Positions 130-52,810 of a stretch of 57,983 bases of DNA are shown here, piece after piece. The notes under the pieces were generated by a model. It had not been told where the DNA came from and did not search any database. It saw only the letters and a list, made by a program, of their open reading frames with translations. Source of the stretch: a virus; the IMG/VR virus record IMGVR_UViG_3300023174_005575, positions 1-57,983 of that record, one strand, 5' to 3'. A program made the position numbers and the translations under genes. How positions within the stretch are numbered: the stretch's first letter is position 1; each line of letters opens with the position of its first letter.

Positions 130-1329
130 TCAAAACCTACTAAACACATCCTTAAGAGCAATGATCAGCTTTTCGATCATGCCATCGTCATGGTATGGAG
201 TTGGAGCAAATCTTAGTCGTTCTGTGCCCACTGCAACTGTAGGATAGTTAATAGGTTGAACATAGATATTGTGATCATCTAACAAGGCATCACTCATGGC
301 CTTACAACGAACAGCATTGCCCACTAGCACTGGTACAATGTGTGATGTGGAAATATCCATATATGGTAAACCAGCTTCAATCAATGCTACTTTCAGTTTG
401 AGGGCACGTTCTTGATGCTTGTCTCTTAGTTCTTGATGTTCTTTCAACCACTTTACAGCAGTCAATGCACCAGCACAACTAACTGGGCTCATACTGGTAG
501 TAAAGATAAATCCGGCTGCTACGCTACGAATAGCATCAATCACATCAGAGTCTCCAGCAACATAGCCACCTTGCACGCCAAATGCTTTACCTAATGTGCC
601 GTTGATTAAGTCGATCCTAGACTCTAGACCTAATTGTTGAGCAACCCCTCCGCCTTGTGGTCCATACAATCCTACAGCATGTACTTCGTCGATGTAGGTA
701 ATGGCTTCGTATTCATCTGCTAGATCACAAATTTCTTTAATTAGGCCAATGTCGCCGTCCATGCTATAAACACTTTCAAATACGATACAGGGAGTTTGAC
801 CTTGAGCTTTAACTTCCTTTAAAATACGTTCTAGGTCTGCCATATCGTTGTGTTGAAATACGGTCTTTGCTGCTCGGCTATGACTGATGCCTACAATCAA
901 GCTATTATGATTTTGGCTATCGCTAATGTAATGAATGTCGGGAATGATCTTGCTCAACGAAATCAATGTCCATTCGTTGGCCACGTAAGCACTGCTGAAT
1001 AGTAGAGCTTTGGATTTGTTATGCAAGGTAGCAAGTTCGTTCTCTAGGGCTACGTGATAGCTGCTAGTGCCGCCAATGTTTCTAGTACCGCCCGAGCCTG
1101 AGCCAGTTTGATCTAATGCTGTATGCATGGCATCAATCACTGCTTTGTGTTGTCCCATGCCCAAGTAGTCGTTGCTGCACCAGTTTACGATGTTTTTAAT
1201 AGTAAACTTGCCGTACCAGATAGCATTGGGGAATTCGCCTTTTTCACGAACAATGTTATTGAATACTCTGTATTTGCCAGAATCTTTAAGATCCTTAAGT
1301 AGTTTATGAAATTGAGTTTTATTAATCAT
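130..1329 (-). CDS. hemA: 5-aminolevulinate synthase (ALAS, Shemin pathway)
   Basis: This 399-residue PLP enzyme condenses glycine with succinyl-CoA to 5-aminolevulinate, the first committed step of tetrapyrrole synthesis by the C4 route. Family signatures are intact: [10 protein letters not shown] at 50-59, [12 protein letters not shown] at 81-92, SVYSMDGD at 186-193, IDEVHAVG at 213-220 with the PLP-contacting D214 and H217, GTLGKAFG at 244-251 with the Schiff-base lysine K248, and [18 protein letters not shown] near the C-terminus. The length matches bacterial ALAS (about 400). The gene is minus-strand, convergent with the Dps-like gene and divergent from the structural genes. A TATAAATA box at 1344-1337 lies 7 bases before the ATG and no Shine-Dalgarno is visible, so the mRNA is probably leaderless or nearly so. 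Related acyltransferases (KBL, BioF) lack the ALAS-type C-terminal motif seen here. No broken residue was found. Confidence 0.96.
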
Positions 1330-6496: not shown

Positions 6497-7254
6497 AATT
6501 TTTTGAATTGACTGACAAGCCTCGCCCAGATGATGGTAGTGAACCTATCATCAAGGCCTTTGTGAAGTTTACCAGTCAAAAACTAGGCTTGAAAGAGCCA
6601 CCTAAAATTAAACTACATAGAAATCCCAAGCTGGCCAGTCAACGTCGTAGCTTTGGTGGATACATGCCAGGACAGGGCATAGAGATTAACATTGGCAATA
6701 GACATATTATGGATGTGTTACGTACTCTAGCACATGAAATGGTACACTACAAACAAGACATCAATGGCCAACTCAAACCAGACAGTGGCAGAGATGGTAG
6801 TGATGAAGAAAACGAAGCAAATGCCAAGGCCGCTGTGGTCATGCGCCTATGGGCTAAGATGAATCCTGAATTATTTCAACACGCTACCATATTGGCAGAG
6901 AGCCAAAAGAACAGACTAACACCTAAGCACATACATAAAATAGCAGATAAGAAAGGCATTAAATGGGATGACGAGCCAGCCTTCTTAAAACTAACTAGAC
7001 GTGTTGCTGGACATAGATATCTAGATGACTTGGATCAAGATGGTTTATTCAAAATGAAAAACTATTTGGATAACCTTGATGAGAACTTTGCTGATGGCCG
7101 TAATCCTCAAGACAAAGGGGATAGTGCTAGACATGGCATACCCAAGAAGGCCAGTTTAGGCACATTGGATAAGATAGGTCATGGATCAGGGCGTAAAGCA
7201 CAATTAGCCAGATGGCAGGCCAATATGCGTAGAGGAAGAAACAAGCATGATTGA
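6493..7254 (+). CDS. Phage zinc metallopeptidase-like protein (HExxH)
   Basis: A 253-residue protein with a clear zincin signature, [11 protein letters not shown], giving H81, E82 and H85. Acidic residues at 104-109 (DEENEA) can supply the third metal ligand. SprT-like and related phage peptidases have the same helix. The C-terminal half is basic and helical (ending RRGRNKHD) and contains a [14 protein letters not shown] segment echoing the AG motif seen in other virion proteins of this phage. The N-terminus [10 protein letters not shown] matches the recurrent M[KR]xxE[LIF] start. It overlaps the preceding Cys-rich gene by four bases and hemF by eight. It might process virion proteins or act after delivery into the host; the substrate is unknown. 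Confidence 0.75.
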
Positions 7255-8149
7255 TTCAAAAGCAGTTAAAACTTGGCTACTTGGTCTTCAACAAAACATA
7301 GTATATATGTTGGAAATGAACGAAGAGTCAGCCAAATTCAAAGCAGACGAATGGAGTAAACCTACTGGAGAAGGTATAACTTGCATACTGGAAGGTGGAC
7401 AACTACTTGAGCGTGGAGGAGTTGGGTTTAGCCATGTAACAGGCAATCAACTACCACCATCGGCCACAGCAGCACGCCCACACCTAATAGGCAGAAAGTG
7501 GGAAGCAATGGGAATGAGTCTAGTGTTTCATCCACTCAACCCATATGTACCAACCGTACATTTAAATGTGCGCTTCTTTGTGGCACAGGCCACAAGCAAC
7601 GAACCAGCAACGTGGTGGTTTGGTGGTGGTATGGATCTTACTCCTTACTATGGTTTTGATGACGATGCTGAGCACTTTCATCGTACTTGCAGCGATGCAT
7701 TGCGTCCATTTGGTGAAGACGTCTATGCCAATTATAAAAAAGCCTGTGATGAATATTTTTATCTCAAACATCGTAATGAACCTAGAGGCATAGGCGGCAT
7801 ATTCTTTGATGACGTAGACACACCAGACTTTGACACAGCATTTGCCTTAACTAGAGCAGTGGGCGATAACTTTTTGTCAGCTTGGATGCCTATTGCACAG
7901 CGAAGACGTGACTCGGCATACGGGCCAGAACAAAGAGCATGGCAAGCATATCGCCGTGGCAGATACGTAGAGTTTAACCTAGTATGGGATCGTGGCACAT
8001 TATTTGGCCTACAGAGTGGAGGCCGTACAGAAAGCATACTGATGAGTATGCCACCCAATGTTACTTGGAGTTATGACTATAGACCAGAAGTCAATAGTCC
8101 AGAAGCTCTATTATATGAGCGTTATCTAAAACCCAAGGATTGGATATAA
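7247..8149 (+). CDS. hemF: Oxygen-dependent coproporphyrinogen III oxidase (HemF)
   Basis: A 300-residue enzyme, about the same length as E. coli HemF. It oxidatively decarboxylates coproporphyrinogen III to protoporphyrinogen IX with O2, the antepenultimate step of heme synthesis. Hallmark blocks are continuous: [72 protein letters not shown] and [13 protein letters not shown]. No gap or lost motif was found. The start overlaps the upstream peptidase by eight bases, so it is probably coupled to the 6296 operon. A stem-loop terminator follows four bases after the stop. The oxygen requirement means it would work in oxic water. It complements ALAS, HemD-like and the heme oxygenase encoded elsewhere in the window. 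Confidence 0.97.
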
Positions 8150-22967: not shown

Positions 22968-25900
22968 ATGGCAAAAAAAATACAGCTACGAAGAGATACG
23001 GCAGCAAATTGGAGTAGAGTTAATCCTAAACTAGCTCAAGGTGAAATCGGCGTCGACATAACCAATAAGAACTTTAAAATTGGTGACGGTATCAATCTAT
23101 GGAATCAATTAACCTACGCTGTAACTTCTAGTAAATTATCCAACCTGTTAGGAACTACTTTTGTTTCTACAGGTACAGATCAGTACCCAACATACACAAT
23201 ATTTTATAATAATGGTTCTAACACTGTTAACATAAGTCCTGCACTGTTTGAAATTCAGAACGGTGTAAATGTTAGAGTTTTATCTGCCACAGAAAGTACG
23301 GATAGCACCACAGGCGCCTTAGTAGTTACAGGTGGAGCAGGAGTAGGCGGCGATCTTAATGTAGCTGGAGATATTACAGCTAATAGTATTAGCCTTGACC
23401 AAGCATTAAGTACAAATTTAGTTGGTAATGTTACTGGCAATGTCACTGGCAATTTAACAGGTGCTATCTATTCAGTAAATGGCACTAGAATTTTAAACAA
23501 TGGCACCGATGGTACAAATGCCAGTTTTAACGGTCATGTAAACGGCACTATTACCAGCACTGGTCAAAGTACATTTACTAGAGCTGACATCAGCAGTGGA
23601 TATATTGATAATACAATTATTGGTAGTATCACACCTGCATCAATTATTGGCACAACAATTAGAGCTAATACTGGGTTTGTTGGCGATTTGTATGCCAACA
23701 ACGGCTCTTCTAAAATATTAGAAAACGGTACAGATGGTACTAATGCTTCTTTTACCGGTAAACTAATTGGTGACATTTACGCTGCTGATGGTGTAACAAA
23801 AATATTAGAAAACGGCACAGATGGAACCGATGCCGTGTTTACTGGTACAGTGAATACTACCACAGGAGTTACAGGCAGGCTTATTGGCGATGTCTATGCT
23901 GCCGACGGTGTAAACAAAATATTAGAAAATGGTAGCGATGGCACTAATGCTGTGTTCACTGGAAAATTAATCGGCGATATCTATTCTGCTGATGGTGTAA
24001 CAAAAATATTAGAAAACGGCACAAATGGCACAAATGCTTCTTTCAATGGATCATTGAGTGGCAATGTTACAGGTAATGTTGCAGGAGACCTAACTGGTGA
24101 TGTTTATGCCAGCAATGGCACAACTAAAGTATTAGAAAATGGCAATGGTACTACTGTTCCTGCTGCTTTTACTGGTAACATAATCGGCGATATCTATGCT
24201 GCTGATGGTGTAACAAAAGTATTAGAAAACGGCACAGATGGATCAAATGCTTCTTTCAATGGATCACTGAGTGGCAATGTTACCGGTAATGTCGCGGGTA
24301 ACTTGACTGGCGATGTTTATGCCAGCAATGGCACAAGTAAAATATTAGATAATGGCACAGATGGCACTAATGCCGTATTCACTGGCAATGTTAATAGCAG
24401 TGGCAAAAGCACATTTAATGAAGTAGCAATTTATTCAACCACAGGTACTCCAGGTACTATAGATAATACAGAGATAGGTAAGACCACACCATCTCCTATT
24501 GCTGGGACTACAATTACTGGCACTGTGATCACTGCTACAGATAAGTTTGTGGGAGTATTTCAAGGTAACAGCTCAGGTAGTTTCACAGGTGATTTAAAGG
24601 GTGACATTATTGCCAATAATGAAGTTAAGGTATTGGATAACGGCACAGACGGATTTAATGCAACCTTTACTGGATCAGTTACTGGAAATATAAACAGTAC
24701 TGGGCCCAGTAGTTTCAGCAATGTTACCATTTCAGGTGGTACTATTAATACTACGCCGATTGGTGCTACTACTCCAAGTAGTGTAAAGGGTACTACTATC
24801 ACAGCTACTAGTGGATTTAGTGGTGCTTTAACTGGTAATGTCACAGGTAATGTCACAGGTAATGTCACAGGTAATGTCACAGGCAATGTCACAGGTAATG
24901 TCACAGGCAATGTCACAGGCAATGTCACCGGAGACATAACCAGCACTGGAACAAGTAGCTTTAGCAATATCGGTGTAACTGGTGGAAATATCGATAGCAC
25001 CCCGATAGGTAATACTACTCCTACCACTGTAAAAGGTACTACAATCACAGCTACTACTGGATTTATTGGAGACTTAACTGGCAATGTTACCGGTAACCTG
25101 ACAGGTAATGTCACTGGCAATGTCACTGGCAACTTAACTGGTAATGTTACCGGAGACATAACCAGCACTGGAACAAGTAGCTTTAGCAATATTGGTGTAA
25201 CCGGTGGAAATATCGATAGCACCCCAATTGGAGCAACAACCCCAACCACAGTAAAAGGCACTACTATTACTGCAACTACTGGGTTCGGTGGTGATCTAAC
25301 TGGAAATGTGACCAGTACTGGTCCCAGTAGTTTTAGTAATATAACCGTAACAGGTGGTAGCATTAATACTACAACAATAGGTGCTACCAACCCAACTACT
25401 GTAAAAGGTACTACAATTACAGCTACAACTGGGTTCGTTGGCAACTTAACTGGTAATGTTACAGGTGACTTAACAGGCAATGTCACAGGTAATGTCACAG
25501 GTAATGTCACAGGTAACTTAACTGGCAATGTAACTGGCAATGTAACCAGTACAGGAACAAGTAGTTTTAGCGATATTGATATTACTGGTGGTAAGATTAA
25601 TAATACCCCAATAGGTGCCACTACGCCAACTACAGTAAAGGGTACTACAATCACAGCTACTACTGGATTTATTGGAGACCTAACTGGCAACGTAACTAGC
25701 ACTGGATCAAGTAGTTTTACTAATGTTGCAGTTACAGGCGGCAGTATTAATAATACTCCAATAGGGGCTACAACACCATCCACAGTTGACGGCACAACGA
25801 TCAAAGCTAATGAACAAATTATTAACAATGCTGGCCAACTTAAATTTAAAGAACTTGCCACAAATGGTGTAACATCAGTTAATTTCAAAGCACCTGATTA

Positions 25901-28900
25901 CTTGTTGTCATCTTACACAATGACATTGCCTACAGCATTAGGTTTAGATGGCTATGTATTAGGACAAAATGTCACTGGTGAATTGGAATTTGTCAGTCCA
26001 GATGCATTTGGTGGCGGCAAAGTAAACGTCAGTAATGTCTATGGCGATGATGACAACGACGGTATTAACAAGCCAGTTAAAACAGTTAAAAGAGCACTGC
26101 AAATAGCCAGTGGTATTGTTTATGATAGCAATGGCAAACCTAATGATAAAAAACTAGTGGTGTCAGTGGCCAATGGCGAATACTACGAAGACAACCCTAT
26201 TATTATTCCAGACAATGTCAGTGTACAAGGTGCTGGACTAAGAGCCTGTAACATTCGTCCACTAAATGCTAACTTGGATATGTTACGTGTACGTAACGGA
26301 TGTTACTTTACTGGATTTACCTTTAGGGATAATCTAAACGTCAATGGAGCACCGCAATTTACATTTGATTATGCTGTAAGCTTTGACGATCCTACAGATC
26401 CAAATTGTGATAGAACCGGCTATGTCAATATGCCTACCGCTCGTCCTACTATTACAATTTCTCCCTATATTCAAAACTGTAGTATTATCAGTTTCTTAGG
26501 CGGTAATGGTGTATTGATCGATGGTAACAAGGTTAACACACCTAACAAACCAAAAAATCCAAATGAAGTAGAAAATCCAGTAGAAGGTCCAGAACCAGAA
26601 CAGGGCAAATCCATGGTGGCCAATGCCTTTACCATGTTGAGCTTTGGTGGTACAGGCTGGCGTGTGATTAATGATGCTTATGCACAGATTGTTAGCTGCT
26701 TCCAAATCTTCTGCTTGAATGGTAGCTATTGCCAAAGCGGTGGATATTTGAGTATTACTAACAGTGCCACTAACTTTGGTAAGTATGCCCTCAGAGCCAG
26801 TGGATATAGTCCCAATGCATTCTCATTTAATAGAGGCGTAGTAGTTGGCACTGGTACTAGTGGCGCACAACAAACTATTCAAGCTATTGGTTTTGGTCAA
26901 TTACCTGTACAAGATTATGTGATTAGATTTAGGGATAATGTATATAAAAATGCCTATTTCCTTCTACAAGAATATAAGTCACTTTTACAAACACAAGTTA
27001 TAACCTGGATATCTACACAAGTCAGTGGAAATATTAGCCCGTTCACTTCTAGCTTTGTCTATGACGAAGACAAATGTCATAGAGATGTTGGGTTGTTGAT
27101 TGATGCTGTGGCCAACGATGTATTGACAGGCGGCAACAGTAGATCAGTTGAAGCAGGTCGAAGTTATGCCGATGCGGATGTGGCTGCATTGACAGCACAA
27201 AAGGCGCAAAACATAGCAGCATTTGAATACTTAAAAGGTCGTGCCTCGGCAGTTGTAACAGAACTGAATATTGGATTTATAATAGAAGAAAAATTCGATA
27301 TTATTATTGGCATTATTGATGATCCTGCATCAGCACCAGACAGTATATCTTTTAGTAATGTAGGAGATATATCTGCTGATTATCAACCTATATCAGCTAG
27401 CGATTATGTGAACTTTAATGCTAATACTAATGTTAATTTTGTTGATAATGTATTCAATATTAATAATCATGGATTATTAAATGGTCAAAAAATAATTTAT
27501 AACAGTAACGGTAATTCGACTATCCCAGGCCTGAACAACGAACAAACTTATTATGTAGATTTCGTCACTATAAATCAATTTGGGTTATTTTATGATAATA
27601 GTTTAACTACTAGAGTTAATATATTAGGCAATAGCACTGGACAACAAAGATTTGTTAAAAATGTCAAAGAGTTTTATGTAGACTCAATTGTTGACAGCCA
27701 CACTGACTATCAAAAATTAACTTTAGATGCAACCTTTTCGACACAATTTGTTACAGGCAGAGTTATAGAAGGCACAACTGGAGGTAGTCCAAATAGAGCA
27801 TATGTTTATAATTATGATATATTAACAAAGGAATTGATAGTCAGTCTGGATTATGTTACTGTAAACAATGTAATATCAAGAAGACCATTCAATGATACCA
27901 GTGTGATCAATTACGATCATGCATCTTCACCTAATAGTAATATTTCAGTAACTGCTGTTGATTCAATCAATACATTATATACAGTAGATGTAAAAATATT
28001 GCCAGTGACCAATGGTACTCAATTGGTTAATTTAGGAACTTTGCCAGAGAAACAGATTTGGTTACATAGACCCAGTATTGTCAACAGTAGCAGTCACTCT
28101 TGGGAATATGCAGGATCCGGTACAGACTATAATGCCTTGCCACAAAACGGAGGCAAGGGAGATGCCATATACGAACAGTTTAGTGATCTTCCAGGTAGAG
28201 TATATACTTCAGGAACTAACGAACTTGGTGACTTTAAAGTTGGTAACTTCATTAAGGCTGAAAATAAAACTGGTAATGTAACATTTACTAACACAGTTAC
28301 AATTGGTGCATTGGCCGCACTGAGATTGGCCGTGGGCAATGTGACCATCGAAGAATTTAGCACAGACATTGGCCTTGGCGACAATGAAGTAGGCGGTCCT
28401 AAAGATACAAGACTAAGCACACAGTTGGCAGTAAAGAGTTATCTAGCAAATAGACTGGGTGACTTTATTGATAAACGGGTCAGTACCAATAATGTGTCCG
28501 GAGCTATTCCGCAGTTAAACAGTTTGGGACAGCTCAATGCTGATATTATTCCTCCTGTAAGAAACTTCTTAAGCTATCGCAGTCAAGGTTATGATAGTAG
28601 ATTAGTACAGGTTCAAAACATTCCGGCAGTAAATCTACTTAACGGTGATCTTGCAACAGAAACATATAGTATACAAGAGTTAACTTTAAATCGTGCCATA
28701 ACAGCAGCAGATGGCACATTAGTTGAGCAAAACACCACAGGAGCCAAAGGCGTTATTATAGGTAATGTGGCTGCTGCAACCTTAATAACTGTGGGTAGTT
28801 ATTTAAACGCCACATTCAATGCTGTGTTTAATACCACAAACACATTGGTCATAGGCGGTGATAGCACACCAAGTGATACTAATCAATCAGTTACCCCTAG

Positions 28901-31784
28901 TAATGTAGGCACAATTACTACTGGTCAAACTGTTAACTATATTCTATCGGAGCAAGAACCTAGTCAATTTTTAATATTAGATCCTTCAAAGAGTTATGAC
29001 TTCACAGGAATAACATCAGTAGTTGGTACTAACTATCAATCTATAGGCGATGTAACTGGTACAGGATATGGTGTACTTTACACATTAGATAATACAAATA
29101 TTATAGGTGGTTCAGGCTATACTCCAGCTTCAGGTTTCCAAGTTTATACTAATGTGCCATTAGTAGCAATCACTGGATCTGGTACAGGAGCCATCGCAGA
29201 CATCACAGTAACCAACGGCTCGGTCACTAATGTCTACTTGGTTAGAGGAGGTACTGGTTACGCTGTTAATGATCAAGTACGTGCTGCATATACTGACATT
29301 GGTGGTACTTATACTGTTCAATTTAGTATCAGAGTAACCAGTATACAGAAAAGACTGTATGTGACCACAGTTGGATCTCAAAAATTCATAGCCAGTAGTG
29401 TAGTTCCAGAATATATCTTTGATAACAATGCACTGGTTAATACATTAACTTTGACAACTACCAGTGCAAAAACATTCAACGCAGCTTCTTCGGGCGGGGA
29501 TGTTGATTATATCAATAGCAGAATAACTATCAGTAGTCACGGACTGTCTAATGGTGATCCTGTAAAATATACTTCTTCACCTTATCCTAACATAGGTGGT
29601 TTAGTTGGTGGCACTGTTTATTATATTAAAGTATATAACAGTAACACAGTTGAACTGTGTAGTGATTATACAATACAAAATAAAATCTCATTTGTTAGCA
29701 GTGGTACAGGCACGCAAAGTTTAACCGTAAATGCAATTGACCTTATTAAAGACACCGTATACTTGCCTGCACATGGGTTTGTCACAGGCGATCCTATTTG
29801 TCTAACAGGTGCAGCATTGCCAAATGGTCTACCATCTGGTAATTTTTATTTTATTGGATCTGTAACTGAAAATAGTTTTACACTACATCAACTTAAGGCA
29901 GATGCGTTATCCAGTATTAATGGGCAAACTGTTAATGCCATAAACTTATCTAGTACTGGAAGTGGCACTGCTACATTTACTTTACAAAACGTACAGATCG
30001 TAGGAACAGTTAATACTGGCTCCCAAACTTCCATTAACTGGAGCAGTTTAAGTGCCAATAACATTGATGCCAGCAACATAGTTAGTGGTATAGTTAATAC
30101 CAGTAGATTAGCCATTGGCACAGCCAACACAGGAACTTTCCTAAGGGGTGATAGCAGTTGGGCTAAAGCTGTTCAAACTTTAAAAACAGGCACCAATAGT
30201 CCTATAAGTTTAACAGGTGATTTTTTCACAACTGGTGGTACTAATAACTTCTATGCTGATGTTACATTAAACATTGATCCAGTAGATGGAACTCGTGGTG
30301 ATCAACTATACTCCAACAGTGGTGTAGTAGCATTCAGTAAAAGTCAATTTAATATAAGCGATGGAGTTACTGCTGGTAAAGTCTATATCAAAGATAATGT
30401 AATCGATGCTGCCACAGTAAACGGTAATAACAGTAGTTATCTATTAGATTCAGTTAACCATACTACACAGCCGGTTAACAAAGGCGGTACTAATTTAACC
30501 AGCTATACTACTGGTGACATGATATATGCCAATGCTAGTAGTTCGTTTGGCAAGTTAAACATTGGAGCAGTCAACAAGGTCATGGTCAGTACAGGCTCTG
30601 CACCGAGTTGGAGTGATACAATTAGTATAAAGGGATTGACGGTCAATGGTGATGTTAATCTTGAAGGTGGCATAGTTACAATCAATTCCGGCAAAGTTAA
30701 GATAGCTGATAAAAATATTGAATTAGGTGTAATTGCAGCACTGAATAATTTAACTGGCACTATTGCTGATTCGGCTAGTTTAACAACCATATCAGGAATG
30801 ACCAGCACAGCTGGAATCATTGGGGGAATGTTATTGACTAAGGTCAGTGGCAGCGGTGACGTTGGTCCTAATGCCAGAGTGGTTGATGTATTAAGTAATA
30901 CTGCCATAACTGTACAAGCAGATAGCAGTAATACTATAGGATCAATTACATTTAACCTTGGGGGTGTATCTGATTACTCGGCCGATAGTGGCGGCATTAC
31001 TGTACATGGTGCTGACAATAAAACTTTTGTTTGGAAAAGAACCACATCAGCATGGACCAGCAATGATAATTTAGATTTAGATTCCGGCAAGGTTTATAAG
31101 ATTGCAGGAACACAGGTACTGTCATCCTCAAATTTAGGTGCAGGAGTAACAGGCTCCAGTCTAACAACAGTGGGCACAATTGGCACTGGTACATGGCAAG
31201 GCACTATTGTCAATCCTACATATGGCGGCACTGGAGTTAATAATGGTATTAATACATTAACCTTGGGTGGTAGTTTATCTACTACAGGAGCATATAGTAC
31301 TAATTTAACAACTACAGCCACTACCAATATAACATTACCAACTACAGGCACATTGGCCACATTGGATAATCTTGAAACATTTACTAACAAGACATTGACC
31401 AGTCCAACCATCACAGGAACTGGTTCGATTGCTGCTGGTGAAGTTACATTGGACAATGAAACAGTTCTAATAGATTCAAGTACACTGACCACAACTACCA
31501 CAGCCACTGATCAAGTAGCAGCTACGGTTAATGGTGTAAAATATAGAACTGTGGAGTTTACAGTGTCAGTGACCAGTGGCGCATACTATCATGCCTTAAA
31601 GATTCTAGTAGTGCATGATGGTGCCGCAGTATTTTTGACACAATATGGAGAAATCTTGTCCAACCCTAGCCAATTATTGGCCACATTCACTGCTGATATT
31701 TCAGCTAATAATATTAGATTGTTAACTACACCAGTGTTCAACGACACTGTGTATAAGGTCGCAATCAATGCAATTTCAGTATAA
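22968..31784 (+). CDS. Giant 2938-aa modular tail fibre or adhesin
   Basis: The largest gene in the window. Residues 1-50 are an Mtd-N-like attachment module (KKIQLRRDTAANWSRVNPK, then LAQGEIGVD). Residues about 160-560 hold nine copies of a GDIYAADGVTKILENG-type unit. Residues about 620-945 alternate TGNV strings with STGTSSFSNIGVTGGNI-type modules. Residues about 1015-1300 include a beta-helix-like segment with SVQGAGLRACNIRP. The next 1500 residues are Thr/Ser/Asn/Gly-rich fibre domains. The last 100 residues closely resemble the end of the 31821 fibre (Y[RS]xVEF[TL]VS, then ILVVHDG and LTQYGEI). It has a late promoter and a structured leader. Strong internal DNA repeats make length variation likely. 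No catalytic site was identified. Confidence 0.85.
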   Translation: MAKKIQLRRDTAANWSRVNPKLAQGEIGVDITNKNFKIGDGINLWNQLTYAVTSSKLSNLLGTTFVSTGTDQYPTYTIFYNNGSNTVNISPALFEIQNGVNVRVLSATESTDSTTGALVVTGGAGVGGDLNVAGDITANSISLDQALSTNLVGNVTGNVTGNLTGAIYSVNGTRILNNGTDGTNASFNGHVNGTITSTGQSTFTRADISSGYIDNTIIGSITPASIIGTTIRANTGFVGDLYANNGSSKILENGTDGTNASFTGKLIGDIYAADGVTKILENGTDGTDAVFTGTVNTTTGVTGRLIGDVYAADGVNKILENGSDGTNAVFTGKLIGDIYSADGVTKILENGTNGTNASFNGSLSGNVTGNVAGDLTGDVYASNGTTKVLENGNGTTVPAAFTGNIIGDIYAADGVTKVLENGTDGSNASFNGSLSGNVTGNVAGNLTGDVYASNGTSKILDNGTDGTNAVFTGNVNSSGKSTFNEVAIYSTTGTPGTIDNTEIGKTTPSPIAGTTITGTVITATDKFVGVFQGNSSGSFTGDLKGDIIANNEVKVLDNGTDGFNATFTGSVTGNINSTGPSSFSNVTISGGTINTTPIGATTPSSVKGTTITATSGFSGALTGNVTGNVTGNVTGNVTGNVTGNVTGNVTGNVTGDITSTGTSSFSNIGVTGGNIDSTPIGNTTPTTVKGTTITATTGFIGDLTGNVTGNLTGNVTGNVTGNLTGNVTGDITSTGTSSFSNIGVTGGNIDSTPIGATTPTTVKGTTITATTGFGGDLTGNVTSTGPSSFSNITVTGGSINTTTIGATNPTTVKGTTITATTGFVGNLTGNVTGDLTGNVTGNVTGNVTGNLTGNVTGNVTSTGTSSFSDIDITGGKINNTPIGATTPTTVKGTTITATTGFIGDLTGNVTSTGSSSFTNVAVTGGSINNTPIGATTPSTVDGTTIKANEQIINNAGQLKFKELATNGVTSVNFKAPDYLLSSYTMTLPTALGLDGYVLGQNVTGELEFVSPDAFGGGKVNVSNVYGDDDNDGINKPVKTVKRALQIASGIVYDSNGKPNDKKLVVSVANGEYYEDNPIIIPDNVSVQGAGLRACNIRPLNANLDMLRVRNGCYFTGFTFRDNLNVNGAPQFTFDYAVSFDDPTDPNCDRTGYVNMPTARPTITISPYIQNCSIISFLGGNGVLIDGNKVNTPNKPKNPNEVENPVEGPEPEQGKSMVANAFTMLSFGGTGWRVINDAYAQIVSCFQIFCLNGSYCQSGGYLSITNSATNFGKYALRASGYSPNAFSFNRGVVVGTGTSGAQQTIQAIGFGQLPVQDYVIRFRDNVYKNAYFLLQEYKSLLQTQVITWISTQVSGNISPFTSSFVYDEDKCHRDVGLLIDAVANDVLTGGNSRSVEAGRSYADADVAALTAQKAQNIAAFEYLKGRASAVVTELNIGFIIEEKFDIIIGIIDDPASAPDSISFSNVGDISADYQPISASDYVNFNANTNVNFVDNVFNINNHGLLNGQKIIYNSNGNSTIPGLNNEQTYYVDFVTINQFGLFYDNSLTTRVNILGNSTGQQRFVKNVKEFYVDSIVDSHTDYQKLTLDATFSTQFVTGRVIEGTTGGSPNRAYVYNYDILTKELIVSLDYVTVNNVISRRPFNDTSVINYDHASSPNSNISVTAVDSINTLYTVDVKILPVTNGTQLVNLGTLPEKQIWLHRPSIVNSSSHSWEYAGSGTDYNALPQNGGKGDAIYEQFSDLPGRVYTSGTNELGDFKVGNFIKAENKTGNVTFTNTVTIGALAALRLAVGNVTIEEFSTDIGLGDNEVGGPKDTRLSTQLAVKSYLANRLGDFIDKRVSTNNVSGAIPQLNSLGQLNADIIPPVRNFLSYRSQGYDSRLVQVQNIPAVNLLNGDLATETYSIQELTLNRAITAADGTLVEQNTTGAKGVIIGNVAAATLITVGSYLNATFNAVFNTTNTLVIGGDSTPSDTNQSVTPSNVGTITTGQTVNYILSEQEPSQFLILDPSKSYDFTGITSVVGTNYQSIGDVTGTGYGVLYTLDNTNIIGGSGYTPASGFQVYTNVPLVAITGSGTGAIADITVTNGSVTNVYLVRGGTGYAVNDQVRAAYTDIGGTYTVQFSIRVTSIQKRLYVTTVGSQKFIASSVVPEYIFDNNALVNTLTLTTTSAKTFNAASSGGDVDYINSRITISSHGLSNGDPVKYTSSPYPNIGGLVGGTVYYIKVYNSNTVELCSDYTIQNKISFVSSGTGTQSLTVNAIDLIKDTVYLPAHGFVTGDPICLTGAALPNGLPSGNFYFIGSVTENSFTLHQLKADALSSINGQTVNAINLSSTGSGTATFTLQNVQIVGTVNTGSQTSINWSSLSANNIDASNIVSGIVNTSRLAIGTANTGTFLRGDSSWAKAVQTLKTGTNSPISLTGDFFTTGGTNNFYADVTLNIDPVDGTRGDQLYSNSGVVAFSKSQFNISDGVTAGKVYIKDNVIDAATVNGNNSSYLLDSVNHTTQPVNKGGTNLTSYTTGDMIYANASSSFGKLNIGAVNKVMVSTGSAPSWSDTISIKGLTVNGDVNLEGGIVTINSGKVKIADKNIELGVIAALNNLTGTIADSASLTTISGMTSTAGIIGGMLLTKVSGSGDVGPNARVVDVLSNTAITVQADSSNTIGSITFNLGGVSDYSADSGGITVHGADNKTFVWKRTTSAWTSNDNLDLDSGKVYKIAGTQVLSSSNLGAGVTGSSLTTVGTIGTGTWQGTIVNPTYGGTGVNNGINTLTLGGSLSTTGAYSTNLTTTATTNITLPTTGTLATLDNLETFTNKTLTSPTITGTGSIAAGEVTLDNETVLIDSSTLTTTTTATDQVAATVNGVKYRTVEFTVSVTSGAYYHALKILVVHDGAAVFLTQYGEILSNPSQLLATFTADISANNIRLLTTPVFNDTVYKVAINAISV
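24834..24929 (+). repeat. Eight tandem 12-bp repeats (TGNV block)
   Basis: GG[TC]AATGTCAC[AC] is repeated eight times without interruption, encoding TGNV units in the giant fibre. Partial copies recur at 25081-25150 and 25447-25545. Near identity at DNA level points to slipped-strand expansion. Confidence 0.9.
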
Positions 31785-38475: not shown

Positions 38476-39981
38476 ATGTCAGTGGCAGATAAACTAATCA
38501 ATTGTTTCACTTATCAAGGAGAACGTGAATTACTAGAGTTCCGTCTCAAATATCTATATGATAAATTTAATGAATTTGTAATTTCAGAGGCAGATTACAC
38601 ATTATCGGGCAATCCAAGAGAATTTAGCTTAGAGCGTGACCTAGACGAGTTGGGCATTCCCAAAGATAAAATTAAAATAGTTCAAGTTCGTCAAAATGAT
38701 TTGCCCAAATATGGCAAAACAATGGAAGAGCGATATGATGCATTATTTGATATTTTAGGTAAATCAGTATCTCCTAATGCCGTAGTGTTTGCCAATCACA
38801 TAGATGAAGTACCTAACCTTGGATTTATCGATTACTATACTTCCATTAGTTTAGGTACTCCTACACATTGTATTAGACTGCCACTAGCACATCTAAGTGG
38901 GCATATCAATTGGATCCTACAAAGTGCTGCCACTGGCGAAATAGTACAAAATCGTCAAGGATATGTGTGCCGCAGCGAGCATTTTAGAGTACATAGTGTC
39001 AGTGATTTCCGTAGAGAAAAAACTAGGGATGGACGTTGGACTTGGGTCGATGTGCCTAGTTTATACTTACAAGATAATAATTTAATTCAAGATGCTGGTT
39101 GGAAATTCCAATGGATGGGCAGTAATGATAGAAAATGGCAAACTTACATTGATAGCCATTTCTATTGTGAACATAGCAAATTGGGGCATGAACTTAGACA
39201 AAAGTACATGGCTAATTATGTGCCATTAGATGGCTGCCAAGATCCTGTGGCTGTAAGGGGTCATCACTTAAGGCCTTATAACACAGGCAGTGTTCCAAGA
39301 ATAATCTATGATACACCGCATTTGTTCGAATATTTTAGCCCCACGTTCCCAGAAGGTGCTGAAGCTAACTATCAACCATTTAAGTTTGATTTTGAGCACA
39401 TGCCAGCTATTACACTAGGAGCACAGGCTAAAAAACGTATTTGGATCGTTGATGATTTCTATGATGATCCTTATTCAGTACGTGAGTTTGCCATGCGACA
39501 GGACTATTATGATGATCCTGGATACATAGGCAAGCGTACTCGCAAACAATTTTTCTTTCCTGGTCTCAAAGAAAAATTTGAAGAAATCATGGGACTAAAA
39601 ATCTCCAATTGGGAAAGTCACGGAATGAATGGGCGTTTCCAGCACAATGTAGCAGGCGAGTCAACAACTTGGCACACTGATTTTCAACGTTGGGCCGGCC
39701 TAATCTATCTCACTCCAGATGCACCCTTCCAAGCAGGTACTAGAATGGCCGGTTACAAGAAAAATCGTGTAAGACATTGCAGTGATCCTAGGATCATGGA
39801 TTGTTTTAATCAGATCACTTTCTTAGATGGTACATTATATGAAGATGTGGACATTGTAGGTAACGTGTTTAATAGACTGGTAATCTATGATGGCGGGCTA
39901 ATTCATGCTGCTATGGAATATTTTGGAGACAATATCGAAAATTGTAGAATGTGGCACATGTTCTTTTTTGATACTCACTAA
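38476..39981 (+). CDS. GT17-type glycosyltransferase fused to a 2OG-Fe(II) oxygenase
   Basis: A 501-residue two-domain protein. Residues 1-260 resemble GT17 N-acetylglucosaminyltransferases: INCFTYQGERELLEFRLKYL, then FVISEADYTLSGNPRE and an acidic NHIDEVPNL site. Residues 315-501 form a DUF6445-like 2-oxoglutarate dioxygenase: WIVDDFYDDPYSVREFAM, then WHTDFQRW giving H400 and D402, H477 in GGLIHAAMEY, and R491 for 2-oxoglutarate. An iron triad is complete. The fusion suggests sequential sugar transfer and hydroxylation on one substrate, such as a virion protein, nucleobase or surface glycan. AAAGGA and a palindromic late box precede it. Confidence 0.82.
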   Translation: MSVADKLINCFTYQGERELLEFRLKYLYDKFNEFVISEADYTLSGNPREFSLERDLDELGIPKDKIKIVQVRQNDLPKYGKTMEERYDALFDILGKSVSPNAVVFANHIDEVPNLGFIDYYTSISLGTPTHCIRLPLAHLSGHINWILQSAATGEIVQNRQGYVCRSEHFRVHSVSDFRREKTRDGRWTWVDVPSLYLQDNNLIQDAGWKFQWMGSNDRKWQTYIDSHFYCEHSKLGHELRQKYMANYVPLDGCQDPVAVRGHHLRPYNTGSVPRIIYDTPHLFEYFSPTFPEGAEANYQPFKFDFEHMPAITLGAQAKKRIWIVDDFYDDPYSVREFAMRQDYYDDPGYIGKRTRKQFFFPGLKEKFEEIMGLKISNWESHGMNGRFQHNVAGESTTWHTDFQRWAGLIYLTPDAPFQAGTRMAGYKKNRVRHCSDPRIMDCFNQITFLDGTLYEDVDIVGNVFNRLVIYDGGLIHAAMEYFGDNIENCRMWHMFFFDTH

Positions 39982-41130: not shown

Positions 41131-41517
41131 ATGGCATACTCAACACAGGTAATCGATCACTATGAAAACCCACGCAATGTGGGTAAAATGGATCCTGAAG
41201 ACACTAATGTGGGTACAGGACTTGTAGGAGCACCTGCTTGTGGCGATGTAATGAAGCTACAAATTCGTGTGGAAGATGGCGTTATAACAGATGCCAAATT
41301 TAAAACATACGGATGTGGTAGTGCTATTGCTAGTAGCAGCCTAGTTACTGAATGGGTCAAAGGCAAAACATTAGATGAAGCTGGTACTATTCGTAATACT
41401 GATATTGCACAAGAACTGGCATTGCCACCAGTTAAAATACACTGTAGTATACTAGCAGAAGATGCTATCAAGTCTGCTATTGATGACTATAGAAAAAAAC
41501 ATGTTGACCCTAACTGA
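41131..41517 (+). CDS. iscU: Iron-sulfur cluster scaffold IscU
   Basis: A 128-residue IscU-type scaffold on which Fe-S clusters are built. The three ligand cysteines are C37 (APACGDVMKL, with the regulatory D39), C62 (TYGCGSAIASSS) and C105 (KIHCSILAEDA). The LPPVK recognition loop for the HscA chaperone is at 98-102. The length equals cellular IscU, so it should be functional and usable by host IscS and HscA. The downstream iscA start lies inside its last codons, giving a coupled pair. It may support clusters of ferredoxin needed by the bilin reductase or other phage-boosted enzymes. Confidence 0.97.
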   Translation: MAYSTQVIDHYENPRNVGKMDPEDTNVGTGLVGAPACGDVMKLQIRVEDGVITDAKFKTYGCGSAIASSSLVTEWVKGKTLDEAGTIRNTDIAQELALPPVKIHCSILAEDAIKSAIDDYRKKHVDPN

Positions 41518-41821
41518 AAAGGCAGTAATAAGAGTTAAAGAGCTACTACAGCATAGGGGCAAAGGCCTCGGTATCAAACTGGGTGTAAGAACTAATGGAT
41601 GCTCCGGTATGAGCTATACATTAGAATTTATAGATTTAGTTGATGAAACGCTAGCTATATATGACTGTAATGGTGTTCATGTCTATATGGATCCAAAACA
41701 TACTATATACCTTAAAGGCGTAGAGATGGATTGGGTAACGAAGGGACTTAACTCTGGATTTGAGTTTAACAATCCCAATGAAAAGAGCCGCTGTGGATGC
41801 GGAGAAAGCTTCAGCATATGA
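41501..41821 (+). CDS. iscA: A-type iron-sulfur carrier IscA
   Basis: A 106-residue A-type carrier that receives Fe-S clusters and delivers them to target proteins. Cys ligands are C34 (RTNGCSGMSY) and the C98-G-C100 pair (SRCGCGESFSI). The start at 41501 (MLTLTEKAV) gives the family's usual length and overlaps iscU by 17 bases. A longer upstream frame does not fit the family. The next gene overlaps its stop by ATGA. With IscU this forms a minimal scaffold-plus-carrier pair; no cysteine desulfurase is in the window, so sulfur must come from host IscS. Confidence 0.96.
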   Translation: MLTLTEKAVIRVKELLQHRGKGLGIKLGVRTNGCSGMSYTLEFIDLVDETLAIYDCNGVHVYMDPKHTIYLKGVEMDWVTKGLNSGFEFNNPNEKSRCGCGESFSI

Positions 41822-47915: not shown

Positions 47916-48353
47916 ATGAACGCAATGACTCGTTTTGACACCCAAGCTCTAAACAGAGCACTTGTTGGATTTGATCGTATGTTTGACACATTCGAGACTA
48001 GATTCGGCAATCAACTCAGTTCAAACTATCCCCCATATAATGTAGTCAAAAAAGATGACGATCATTATGCTATTGAAGTAGCAGTCGCCGGCTTTAAAAA
48101 GAACGAAATTACTGTGGAAGTGGATGGTGATCAACTCACAATCAAAGGACAGCGTAACAAAGACGAAGCTGATGAAGTGCAGTATATGCATCGCGGACTC
48201 AGTGCTCGTGATTTTGTTCGCCAGTTTACTTTGGCTGAGTATATGTTGGTTCGGGGTGCTTCAATTCAAGATGGCGTGATTCGTGTTGATTTGGAACGAG
48301 TAGTTCCGGATCATATGAAACCACGCTTGATTGACATTGTAGAAATTAAGTAA
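47916..48353 (+). CDS. hsp20: Small heat-shock protein (Hsp20/IbpA type)
   Basis: A 145-residue alpha-crystallin-domain chaperone. The domain runs about 38-130: YNVVKKDDDHYAIEVAVAGF, then KKNEITVEVDGDQLTIKGQ and the dimer-loop region RGLSARDFVRQFTLAEYM, ending GVIRVDLERVVP. A short PRLIDIVEIK tail follows. It holds unfolding proteins in solution. A late promoter, a structured leader and AAAAGGAG imply high expression. Phage copies of Hsp20 are known in T4-like cyanophages; a role in folding virion or redirected metabolic proteins is likely. Confidence 0.95.
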   Translation: MNAMTRFDTQALNRALVGFDRMFDTFETRFGNQLSSNYPPYNVVKKDDDHYAIEVAVAGFKKNEITVEVDGDQLTIKGQRNKDEADEVQYMHRGLSARDFVRQFTLAEYMLVRGASIQDGVIRVDLERVVPDHMKPRLIDIVEIK

Positions 48354-48409: not shown

Positions 48410-48733
48410 ATGAACATGTCCGATGATGTTAAACTAGAAGATCGAGTTCAACTAGACGAAAAGATTAAACAAAAAATCATTGAACCTAAAAAATGGAAAG
48501 TGATTTTTTTAAATGATAATCATACTCCCATGGAGTTTGTTGTTACTGTATTGATTGAAATTTATAAACACACAATGGAAGTTGCACAAGAACTTACACT
48601 TCAAATTCACGACACCGGTAGTGGTGTTGCAGGTACATATACATTCGAGATAGCGGAAATTAAAGCAGTAGAAACTACTAACTTGGCAAGGGCACAAGGC
48701 TTTCCGCTACAAATTAAACTTGAAGAGGAATAA
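48410..48733 (+). CDS. clpS: ClpS adaptor protein
   Basis: A 107-residue ClpS. The core WKVIFLNDNHTPMEFVVTVL matches the family's substrate-binding block (N-D-x-x-T-P-M-x-x-V), and the rest of the fold is present through GVAGTYTFEIAEIKA. The N-terminal 27 residues are the charged extension that enters ClpA. ClpS delivers N-degron proteins to ClpAP. A phage copy could redirect host proteolysis. GGAG lies four bases before the ATG at 48410. It is followed directly by heme oxygenase (no gap), suggesting co-expression. Confidence 0.94.
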   Translation: MNMSDDVKLEDRVQLDEKIKQKIIEPKKWKVIFLNDNHTPMEFVVTVLIEIYKHTMEVAQELTLQIHDTGSGVAGTYTFEIAEIKAVETTNLARAQGFPLQIKLEEE

Positions 48734-49282
48734 ATGAGTTTACGAGAGATCACTAAGGATCTGCACCACGAAGCAGAAACTACAAAATTTGCCAAACTAC
48801 TATTAAGTGGCAAAATTAGCAAAGAAGATTACGCAAATTATCTATATCAAATGTTACTGGTCTATGGCCCAATTGAGTTTGGCAATAGAATGGTTGGTAA
48901 CATGGACAACCTAAAAGGCATTGAAAGATTGCCTGCTATCTATAAAGATTTTATGGAATTAGCTGGACCAGATCATAAGTATGTTTGGCTACCAGAAAGC
49001 ATTGCTTACCACAACTATCTAGTTGACTTGATCAATGATGTTGATCGTAGACATTTGATTAAGGCACATTTATACTGCCGTCATATGGGCGACCTTAATG
49101 GTGGATTGATTATTAAGAAGCAAGTTGCTGCTATCAGCAGTGGACATTTCTATGAATTTGATAATGCTGCTGAACTTAAAGTGGCTATTCGTGCAGAACT
49201 AACAGATGACTTGGGCGACGAAGCTCGTGTGGCATTTGAATGGGCCATTAGAATGATGAAGGATTTGTATAATGGTGAGTAA
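48734..49282 (+). CDS. ho1: Heme oxygenase
   Basis: A 182-residue, all-helical heme oxygenase that opens heme to biliverdin, CO and Fe2+. The proximal heme ligand is H11 in TKDLHHEAE, matching the family T-K-x-x-H-x-x-A-E. The distal helix is YCRHMGDLNGGLII, the counterpart of Y-L-G-D-L-S-G-G with the flexible glycines. The protein is slightly shorter than cyanobacterial HO-1 (about 240), as in other phage versions. It overlaps the bilin reductase gene by 11 bases, making a two-gene cassette. Electrons would come from host ferredoxin. Confidence 0.94.
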   Translation: MSLREITKDLHHEAETTKFAKLLLSGKISKEDYANYLYQMLLVYGPIEFGNRMVGNMDNLKGIERLPAIYKDFMELAGPDHKYVWLPESIAYHNYLVDLINDVDRRHLIKAHLYCRHMGDLNGGLIIKKQVAAISSGHFYEFDNAAELKVAIRAELTDDLGDEARVAFEWAIRMMKDLYNGE

Positions 49283-49955
49283 AGTTTGGGATTCACTTAT
49301 TTCCGTACAGAACCTTCTTGAGGAAAGTTTTGCTAGAACTGGCGTTGAGCAGTTTGAAAAAGGCATGGAGCGGTTCAATCAACCTGGTTGGGTTAATCGT
49401 GTATGGAGTAGTGAGTCCTATCGTCGTGCTCACGTTGACGTAGTAGACGCTAGAGAGAAAAAGGGCTTATGGATGATGCATTGTTGTGTGTTTCCACATA
49501 CGCATAATCCAGCCCCAATCTTTGGCTTTGACGTCATTGCAGGAAAAAACAAGATCACTGGCTGTTTCTATGATTACAGCCCAACCAGTGATGACGTTCA
49601 TCCTATGACAGAGTGGTTCCAGCATGAAGTTAGTAAAATGGCATGGCACAAGCCTAGAGCATTGCCAGAGTGGGCACAGCGTATTTTCAGTCCCAGTATG
49701 GTAGCAGCAGGCAATGTGCAGGATGAAGAAGAGTTGGATCAAATAGTAGCCATGGCTCGTACTGGTGTTGACCATTACCTTGCTACGGTAGGCGAAACCA
49801 ATCATACTGCCACGGACACCAGTGATAGACAGAATTATTACGCACAGAATCAAAAACAAAACCCACATACTCCCAAAGTTATGGTTAGTTTGGGCCTAAG
49901 TGAGGATGATGTGCGAGTGTTTATTCAGGAGTGCCTCTTCCCAGAAATTGCATAA
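49272..49955 (+). CDS. pcyX: Ferredoxin-dependent bilin reductase (PcyX/PebS-like)
   Basis: A 227-residue FDBR that reduces biliverdin with ferredoxin electrons. Family blocks are YRRAHVDVVDAREKKG (residues 50-65), PAPIFGFDVIAGKNKITG with the catalytic-type D87, GCFYDYSP, and a C-terminal QNYYAQNQKQNPHT with a terminal ECLFPEI. The family includes PcyA, PebA, PebB, PebS and the phage enzyme PcyX; from memory the last was described from uncultured ocean viruses beside heme oxygenase. Which product is made cannot be told from sequence alone. No bilin lyase or phytochrome is in the window. It overlaps heme oxygenase by 11 bases. Confidence 0.93.
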   Translation: MVSKVWDSLISVQNLLEESFARTGVEQFEKGMERFNQPGWVNRVWSSESYRRAHVDVVDAREKKGLWMMHCCVFPHTHNPAPIFGFDVIAGKNKITGCFYDYSPTSDDVHPMTEWFQHEVSKMAWHKPRALPEWAQRIFSPSMVAAGNVQDEEELDQIVAMARTGVDHYLATVGETNHTATDTSDRQNYYAQNQKQNPHTPKVMVSLGLSEDDVRVFIQECLFPEIA

Positions 49956-51674: not shown

Positions 51675-52283
51675 GTGATTGATTTGAACTATCAAGAATT
51701 ATTTTTAGACATATACAAGACAAACTTTTGGAGAGACGCAGAATCTAGAAGTGGTACTGGCTCCAATTTATCAAGCACTCGTAAATTGGTTGAAGAACTT
51801 CCAGCTTTATTTAGAATGCTGGAAGTTACCAGTATTTTAGATATTCCCTGTGGTGATTACTATTGGATGCGTACTGTGCCTATGCAGGGCATACAATACA
51901 TTGGCGCTGATTTAGTGCCAGAAATTATTGCGGATGATAGACTAAAATATCCCAATGTAAGTTTTATAGAATTAGATATACTATCCGACAAGCTACCTAG
52001 TGTGGATCTTATCATAGTGAGGGATTGCCTAGTGCATTTTCCCGATGAAGATGTTTTTCGAGCATTGAATAATGTATATGAAAGTGCCAGTAAATATTTT
52101 TTATCTACTACATTTCCAAATCATTCCAATAAAAAAGATATTGAAATGGGTGATTGGCGACCACTTAATCTAGAAGATGCTCCTTTTAATTTGCCCAAGC
52201 CCTTGGCCATTATTAACGAAGGCCTAATAGGCGATTGTAACGATAAAAGTATGGCCGTTTGGAGTGTTGATCAACTAGGATAA
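51675..52283 (+). CDS. Class I SAM-dependent methyltransferase
   Basis: A 202-residue methyltransferase. Motif I is SILDIPCGDYYWM (residues 53-65), motif II includes IQYIGADLVPEI, and the acidic motif III region is LPSVDLIIVRDCLVHFPDED. The opening FWRDAESRSGTGSNLSSTRK is typical of a bacterial and phage family with unknown substrate. The start is GTG at 51675; no ATG fits the frame. The last 13 bases overlap the convergent HemD-like gene. The substrate may be a small molecule, glycan or nucleobase. Confidence 0.8.
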   Translation: MIDLNYQELFLDIYKTNFWRDAESRSGTGSNLSSTRKLVEELPALFRMLEVTSILDIPCGDYYWMRTVPMQGIQYIGADLVPEIIADDRLKYPNVSFIELDILSDKLPSVDLIIVRDCLVHFPDEDVFRALNNVYESASKYFLSTTFPNHSNKKDIEMGDWRPLNLEDAPFNLPKPLAIINEGLIGDCNDKSMAVWSVDQLG

Positions 52284-52810
52284 AACCTAGTTACATTAAA
52301 CCAAACTTCACTATTTGGTTCACAACTGTCAGTACACATTAGTTCAACTGTATCAGTTTGACAGGTACGTTCAAAAGCTTCTATTACTCGTTGGCTATAA
52401 ATCCAAACTCTATCTGGACAAATATTCAACGCAATTTCTACATTTAAAGAATTTACTGAAATCTCATAAACCTGTATAGCGTGTACGTTATCATCCAAAC
52501 TGAAATCTCTAGCATATGAATCAGCATGTAACCAAGTTATAGGTTCATCAGGCAACACGGCTTCACTGGCTTTTAGTCCTAAAAACACTACATCGTTGAA
52601 TCCTGCTTTTACTAGTCTATCTTTGGTCTTTGGACCTATGCAATATATTTTACGATCTAATAGAGAACCACTATAATGTTCTATGGCATTATAGTGTGTA
52701 ATTAACACAGAAGAAGTAAATACTGGGGCATGTTGTATGCCCTTGCTTTCCAAACAAGGTATCCAAATGTTTTTATTTGGATCGATCATTTGGGTGTATA
52801 TTTGTCTCAT
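52271..52810 (-). CDS. hemD: HemD-like uroporphyrinogen III synthase (short form)
   Basis: A 179-residue protein, versus about 240 for typical HemD. It retains the two-domain order: VFTSSVLITHYNAIEHYSGS (the S-x-x-A-V-type strand-helix), then KIYCIGPKTKDRLVKAGF, matching the I-x-x-[VI]-G-x-x-T-x-x-x-L-x-x-x-G core. WLHADSYARDF and VYEISVNS, then WIYSQRVIEAF, follow. HemD closes hydroxymethylbilane into uroporphyrinogen III. The family has few conserved catalytic residues, so activity cannot be read off. It is minus-strand with a TAAATA box at 52834-52829. It fits the tetrapyrrole theme and bridges ALAS and HemF, but the N-terminal ring-domain half is shortened. Confidence 0.65.
   Translation of the reverse strand: MRQIYTQMIDPNKNIWIPCLESKGIQHAPVFTSSVLITHYNAIEHYSGSLLDRKIYCIGPKTKDRLVKAGFNDVVFLGLKASEAVLPDEPITWLHADSYARDFSLDDNVHAIQVYEISVNSLNVEIALNICPDRVWIYSQRVIEAFERTCQTDTVELMCTDSCEPNSEVWFNVTRFYPS

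Follow-up and report, generated by a model that had tools for sequence, protein, structure and literature searches.

The 57,983-nucleotide stretch of viral DNA analyzed here (IMG/VR record IMGVR_UViG_3300023174_005575; hereafter, the window) comes from a jumbo tailed phage and likely carries a phage-borne pathway that leads through heme to a bilin, most likely phycoerythrobilin (PEB). An earlier note on this DNA had described a heme oxygenase (HO) and a bilin reductase (FDBR) as an overlapping cassette. Both genes are present, and the same window also encodes 5-aminolevulinate synthase (ALAS) and the coproporphyrinogen III oxidase HemF, which that finding left unmentioned. With these two genes, the cassette appears as part of a heme-to-bilin pathway rather than as an isolated gene pair.

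Results

Hsp20, ClpS, heme oxygenase and bilin reductase form a conserved cassette

Four adjoining genes on the plus strand of the window encode a small heat-shock protein of 145 aa (Hsp20, 47916..48353; PF00011, E 1.2e-19; phrog_432, E 1.2e-39), the ClpAP protease adaptor ClpS of 107 aa (48410..48733; PF02617, E 1.7e-25), an HO of 182 aa (48734..49282; PF01126, E 6.1e-21), and an FDBR of the PcyX type of 227 aa (49272..49955; PF05996, E 7.8e-17), all four Pfam matches being above their cut-offs. Open reading frames, sequence, and Pfam matches agree with the earlier description of an overlapping HO and bilin reductase cassette behind Hsp20 and ClpS, down to its junctions: the HO ATG at 48734 comes immediately after the clpS stop codon TAA (48731-48733), with a gap of 0, and the FDBR begins with an ATG at 49272 while the HO stop codon ends at 49282, giving the 11-base overlap that had been claimed. 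An alternative in-frame GTG start of the FDBR at 49275 would give an overlap of 8.

The cassette is conserved among the nearest viral loci. A scan of viral contigs returned 346 stretches encoding an FDBR relative, and the best 80 of these 346, corresponding to 79 distinct loci, were kept; since they were picked by FDBR similarity and so comprise the closest relatives of the window, the resulting counts describe its clade rather than all FDBR-bearing phages. In the order Hsp20-ClpS-HO-FDBR, HO is present in 79/79 loci, ClpS in 77/79, and Hsp20 in 77/79. One locus without ClpS and Hsp20 starts inside HO, its left end being cut off (L040), and another has neither gene and is a real or local exception (L046). 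Given these counts, the gene grouping is not due to chance. An HO/FDBR overlap is seen in 77 of 81 rows (the 79 loci, the window, and the isolate Pelagibacter phage Mosig EXVC030M), and a 4-base ClpS/HO overlap occurs in 52 of the same 81, with overlap lengths being approximate because start codons were picked by a script (which took the GTG of the window, giving 8). HO and FDBR are separated by a gap of 464-1478 bases in three loci (L007, L017, and L080). In 13 of the 81 rows, including L005, L022, L030, and L067, ~270-290 bases lie between ClpS and HO, a space that possibly holds an extra small gene. All five large relatives that were fetched (G001, G014, G029, G037, and G041, each whole except G029, with 280,000 of its 280,019 bases) encode ALAS, HO, FDBR, ClpS, Hsp20, and IscU.

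The window HO carries His11 at the proximal-His position and the distal-helix motif GDLNGG. It matches solved heme oxygenases at E 4.5e-9 and, at 182 aa, is shorter than the listed PDB HO chains (207 aa or more). Across the 81 HO rows, the proximal His is kept in 80 (with one gap) and GD(L/M)xGG in all 81. Two main HO types account for 32 and 43 of these rows, with a mean identity of 40% between the types, despite which the FDBRs of the same loci are 72-83% identical to that of the window. A quick tree of the FDBRs requires at least eight changes of HO type, three of them forced by well-supported branches. These comparisons indicate that the oxygenase has been swapped in place (HO genes of L002-L080) before a nearly constant reductase, with the catalytic positions kept in both types.

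The window derives from the genome of a jumbo tailed phage

The window belongs neither to a cyanobacterium nor to a bacterial chromosome. Its assignment to a jumbo tailed phage follows from the collinearity of most of the window with the ~337 to 384 kb end of viral contig G001 (399,796 bases), from the terminases of its relatives, which are 30-32% identical to the terminase of Mosig (in G001, G014, G037, and G041, and also in G029), and from its provenance as an IMG/VR virus record. Bacterial contamination is ruled out by the G001 collinearity and by the terminase matches in G001, G014, G037, and G041. The earlier note had supposed a host other than a cyanobacterium; the non-cyanobacterial part stands, but the host context was wrong, the carrier being, by the terminases and the collinearity of the relatives, an uncultivated phage. 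No tRNA was found in the window. The nrdA gene lies near by in the window region, and NrdA is closest to those of Xanthomonas and Stenotrophomonas phages (52-59%). Gene counts below refer to a set of 49 records, consisting of the window and the 48 of the 79 loci with contigs of at least 30 kb, most of which are fragments. As the CB_2 phage infects methanotrophs, a link to pmoC-bearing phages was considered; AmoC matched 0/49 records, a count that carries no weight because its control was silent as well.

The bilin reductase falls within the PcyX clade

The earlier note had proposed placing the reductase among the known FDBRs. Structure match, residues, and tree all put it in the PcyX clade, with cyanobacterial PcyA outside. 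The nearest solved structure is the PcyX 5owg (PcyX_EBK42635; E 5.6e-68), the best PcyA match being at E 2.9e-14. In a tree of 47 rows, a single 24-row clade (support 99/98) unites the window with 19 loci closely related to it, Mosig, and three MAG contigs; five Acetobacteraceae or Roseomonas-type enzymes are sister to this clade, and cyanobacterial and cyanophage PcyA are separate from it (100/99). The same grouping of FDBRs, termed 'AX', is described in PMC10151467. PcyX genes in L107, L108, and L109, which are contigs of bacterial MAGs (Halobacteroidaceae, Neomarinimicrobiota, and Rickettsiales), are probably binned phage DNA. The FDBR of L156, a Nonlabens xiamenensis contig, is almost identical to the PcyA of cyanophage P-TIM40 and is likely a phage contamination in a bacterial assembly.

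The active-site residues of the window enzyme are Asp56, His70, and Asp87. An Asp occupies the Asp56 position, which we take to be that of Glu76 in PcyA, in all 25 PcyX-clade rows examined (21 of the window clade, Mosig, and the three MAG contigs), and a Glu stands there in all 52 other rows aligned; the His and the second Asp are kept in all 25 PcyX-clade rows. Asp56 aligns with the Asp of AHLDVVD in 5owg. In PMC11480375, PEB formation is tied to a PcyX-specific Asp55, and the CB_2 enzyme, which lacks Asp55, makes PCB. We infer that Asp56 of the window is this Asp55; the chain numbering may include a tag. By sequence, the window enzyme is assigned to PcyX, the phage family making PEB, and PEB is its most likely predicted product. 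That it instead makes PCB, as PcyA does, is improbable. The freshwater CB_2 enzyme, midway between PcyX and PcyA, does so, and as the sole freshwater phage enzyme assayed in PMC11480375 it counts against the pathway proposed here; however, the window enzyme retains the PcyX-type Asp that is absent from CB_2 and sits within the PcyX clade.

Heme-making and iron-sulfur genes accompany the cassette

Near one end of the window, on the minus strand, lies the gene for a 399-aa ALAS (vAlaS, 130..1329; TIGR01821, 575.6 bits, cut-off 338.55), with the PLP lysine in GTLGKAFG. In an alignment to 2bwn, this enzyme has an Arg in place of His342 of R. capsulatus AlaS, and it has no C-terminal Cys. Loss of His342/Cys400 is read in PMC11480375 as loss of heme feedback, and the window ALAS is probably free of such feedback. 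ALAS is found in 16 of the 49 records, most of the others being short fragments, and is absent from the 215-kb G006. HemF, the oxygen-dependent coproporphyrinogen III oxidase (300 aa, 7247..8149, plus strand; NF003727, 426 bits, cut-off 297; PF01218, E 1.7e-123), recurs in its window type in four more viral contigs at 95-97% identity and in a further one at 61%. The HemF of G001 is only 54% identical to that of the window and lies at a different genome position, so HemF may have been gained twice or moved. Over the 49 records, HemF occurs in two, ferrochelatase in one, and HemE in one. In isolate phages, ALAS gave only distant BioF/Kbl-type matches of 34% or less among 15 of the 19 records listed, and HemF matched three records, two annotated hemF (50%, 'Acinetobacter phage MD-2021a') and one a short piece; these matches look like host DNA.

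G001 encodes HemB (446.8 bits), HemC (339.4), HemE (434.8), HemF (415.8), and HemH (308.2), all above curated cut-offs. Its hem genes lie at four sites (about 8, 22, 273, and 293 kb), with hemC and hemE overlapping, and have as near neighbours genes with homologues elsewhere in the phage clade; with such conserved phage genes close by, a single misjoin would not explain them. HemB, HemC, and HemE were seen in this one contig alone, and scans gave no close match to its HemE, HemB, or HemH in any other viral contig. In G052, which is closely related to the window, a ferrochelatase gene cut by the contig end (G052:C1:2-388; 53% over 133 residues) adjoins a homologue of window positions 38476-39981. 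As annotated, G001 would cover all steps of heme synthesis with two exceptions, the HemD step, for which it has only an unproven HemD-like protein, and the protoporphyrinogen oxidase step, for which no enzyme was found; for the latter, HemJ was found in 0/49 records, HemG was absent in four large records, and HemY, sought by a crude motif alone, was not found.

The HemD-like protein of the window (179 aa, 52271..52810, minus strand) is possibly a reduced uroporphyrinogen III synthase, although unproven, and we do not count it as HemD. Its PF02602 match (E 0.0026, 17.4 bits) is below the cut-off of 27.5, and it has no NCBIfam match; the G001 copy has one at E 0.0018, below cut-off. Its structural model is poor (pLDDT 50), with Foldseek at E 0.6 and the five best VIA rows all HemD (Z 4.8-5.4), hhalign found no match to E. 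coli HemD, and a PDB profile search gave one unrelated match (E 0.24). The family (179-189 aa) is present in five viral contigs besides the window (L002, L004, L008, L011, and L012).

Two iron-sulfur genes lie on the plus strand. The Fe-S scaffold IscU (41131..41517; TIGR01999, 220.5 bits, cut-off 192.4), shared by 5/5 large relatives, might tie in with the supply of iron and ferredoxin, and the adjacent gene encodes an IscA-like Fe-S protein (41462..41821; TIGR00049, 104.8 bits, above the cut-off of 58.8; TIGR02011, 141 bits, below 150.6).

Tail proteins contain a phycobiliprotein-like CXRD domain

The earlier note had seen no phycobiliprotein in this DNA. No whole gene for one is present, but a phycobiliprotein-like CXRD domain lies inside a tail protein of the window. 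This tail/receptor-binding protein of 2938 aa (22968..31784, plus strand), with an N-terminal Mtd_N (PF18454, E 3.1e-14), contains the domain at 26910..27299 on the same strand, with the motif CHRD and the Cys codon at 27075. The domain is helical, spans about 110-130 residues, and bears the motif (Y)(D)xxKCxRDxG. It is found in the window and in 5/5 large relatives, with 78 copies over eight sequences at iE<1e-3 (41 in G001, ten each in G037 and G041, nine in G014, five in G029, and one each in the window, G051, and G052); the same profile search found 0 copies in Mosig. Across the 78 copies, the motif Cys is kept in 67, the Arg in 66, and the Asp in 74. The G001 repeats lie at 103-123 kb and 361-364 kb, with 34 copies in one 6682-aa frame. 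The domain is absent from a partial negative set that combines a 42-kb control stretch of Xanthomonas phage X1 with fragments of E. coli sequence.

Weak but consistent profile and fold signals make it probable that the CXRD domain family is distantly akin to phycobiliproteins. A search with PF00502 (Phycobilisome) matched giant structural proteins in 5/49 records, above cut-off in two, and 6/23 CXRD copies reached E<=0.1 (best 4.9e-4); the window copy alone gave no Pfam match at E<=0.1. Against PDB, a 23-copy profile (A4) returned six matches at E<=1, all of them phycocyanin alpha (best 9.4e-4), the Cys aligned in the best match being chain residue 84 by count, and a single copy returned 11 matches, all phycoerythrin alpha (E 0.17 to 0.93). 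In hhalign, the domain scored 87% against phycocyanins (CpcA) with 86 filtered copies and 82% with the 23-row set. The structural model is helical and of fair confidence (pLDDT 78); its top Foldseek rows are mostly phycobiliproteins at non-significant values (E 0.27 and up), and VIA gave a Z of up to 6.4 (rmsd 3.9 over 92 residues), below the level of a stand-alone fold match. In INPHARED (50,697 records), three CXRD copies matched 78, 89, and 135 records; apart from one 'Marine virus' in each set, every record carries a cyanophage name (Synechococcus, Prochlorococcus, Cyanophage). Phycobiliproteins frequently attach their bilin via a CXRD motif (PMC10151467). A search for a CpeT lyase gave nothing better than E 3.3. 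In cyanophage S-PM2 (L309), cpeT (836-1363) lies ~1.4 kb upstream of the CXRD-bearing giant gene (2812 onward).

Discussion

In the proposed pathway, ALAS would feed 5-aminolevulinate into heme synthesis during infection, probably without heme feedback, and HemF would speed the oxygen-dependent coproporphyrinogen step. Heme would be completed by host enzymes or, in G001, by the phage HemB, HemC, HemE, and HemH. HO would then open heme to biliverdin IX-alpha, iron, and CO, and PcyX would carry out the four-electron reduction of biliverdin with host ferredoxin, most likely to PEB. A Fer2 ferredoxin was found in 0/49 records with a working control, and the electron donor would therefore be supplied by the host or be a protein of a different kind. 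Coupled translation of the abutting or overlapping genes may allow ClpS, HO, and PcyX to be produced together, and ClpS may tune proteolysis; Clp controls the first tetrapyrrole enzyme in chloroplasts and enterobacteria. The activities of these enzymes and the direction of flux are inferred. In PMC11480375, the AlaS, HO, and FDBR of the CB_2 phage are reported to be active enzymes and hemO-pcyX-alaS cassettes to recur. Against the pathway stand the negative searches for a Fer2 ferredoxin and a protoporphyrinogen oxidase, the perhaps separate gain of HemF, the confinement of HemB, HemC, and HemE to one contig, the presence of ALAS in just 16/49 records, and the lack of ALAS in G006.

The purpose of HO and a bilin reductase in phages of non-photosynthetic hosts is called 'still enigmatic' in PMC11480375. 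One reading is that HO, with PcyX clearing toxic biliverdin, frees heme iron for ribonucleotide reductase and Fe-S proteins and that the pigment is waste, and it can draw on IscU and IscA in the window, on nrdA near by, and on iron supply having been raised as an option in PMC11480375. We consider it unlikely, as the same phages encode heme-making enzymes that spend iron (ALAS in 16/49 records, HemF, and HemH in G001) and iron release needs no bilin reductase; phages that both make heme precursors and open heme argue against plain iron scavenging and for a bilin (or CO) product. Distinctly unlikely is a signalling role in which a phytochrome or bilin-binding globin of the host takes up the bilin and host behaviour changes, even though in E. 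coli the phytochrome Cph1 was loaded by HO and PcyA of the CB_2 phage, and the three genes sit beside a phytochrome in Bradyrhizobium ORS278 (both PMC11480375). The earlier remark that no phytochrome gene is in view is borne out by the PHY domain, found in 0/49 phage records with a working control, which leaves the phytochrome-chromophore idea without support inside the phage. PEB is, in addition, a poor phytochrome switch.

The CXRD domain suggests a further use, in which PEB bound to the Cys of the tail proteins would confer a light-related, structural, or protective property on the virion. The occurrence of the domain in the window and 5/5 large relatives, its 41 copies in G001, and the Cys kept in 67/78 speak for such a use, as do the profile, Pfam, and fold matches leaning to phycobiliproteins, the role of CXRD given in PMC10151467, and the near restriction of CXRD-bearing INPHARED isolates to cyanophages. 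We nevertheless judge it rather improbable: Mosig has HO and PcyX but 0 CXRD copies, many cyanophages have the domain but no FDBR match, the Cys is missing in 11/78 copies, the window copy alone falls short of a Pfam match at E<=0.1, no CpeT lyase better than E 3.3 was found, and the globin-like fold may serve structure alone. About as improbable is the more specific proposal that the jumbo-phage clade makes its own phycobilin and attaches it to tail CXRD domains, yielding a pigmented virion, whereas cyanophages take the host bilin. Were it true, cyanophages drawing bilin from a pigmented host would account for the domain being essentially limited to cyanophages among isolates, and, if the hosts of the clade lack bilins, the phage would bring its own bilin genes. 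With 41 occurrences in one phage, the CXRD tail domain offers a concrete, testable candidate destination for the bilin within the phage. We favor the heme-to-bilin pathway, in which the fixed ClpS-HO-PcyX operon and the heme-making enzymes argue for the bilin as the wanted product.

As its FDBR belongs to the PcyX family, the window cassette is of a known kind, and both the HO-PcyX cassette and its partnership with ALAS are already known (PMC11480375). With the hemO-pcyX cassettes of marine phages and the hemO-pcyA/X-valaS cassettes of marine and freshwater phages described there, it shares the adjacent HO and FDBR, the PcyX-type enzyme, ALAS on the same contig (a 'broken cassette'), and an ALAS without heme-feedback residues. 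It differs from them in the HemF of the window, the HemB, HemC, HemE, and HemH of G001, the fixed ClpS-HO-PcyX operon behind Hsp20, and the jumbo genomes, and the main text of PMC11480375 does not contain 'hemF', 'clps', 'hsp20', 'hemb', or 'ferrochelatase'. Mosig likewise has overlapping HO and PcyX (50% identity), with a ferrochelatase near by, but has no ALAS or ClpS match and no CXRD domain, and its PcyX lies beside neck and 2OG-oxygenase genes. The hemO-pcyA-alaS island of Bradyrhizobium ORS278, as presented in PMC11480375, also brings three tetrapyrrole genes together but is bacterial, with a phytochrome and without phage genes. The tail domain shares the CXRD motif, a helical domain, and a profile and fold resemblance with the phycobiliproteins and bilin-binding globins (BBAG) described in PMC10151467; unlike these, it sits inside giant tail proteins, spans about 110-130 aa with the other half diverged, and binds bilin only putatively. 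Phycobiliprotein-like tail domains, like HemB, HemC, HemE, and HemF in phages, are unreported in the literature we searched, which lies mostly outside subscription journals. Ferrochelatase is already known from pelagiphages (PMC9599517, PMC11561400), and G001, with HemB, HemC, HemE, HemF, and HemH in addition to ALAS, encodes the largest phage-borne share of the heme pathway met in that literature.
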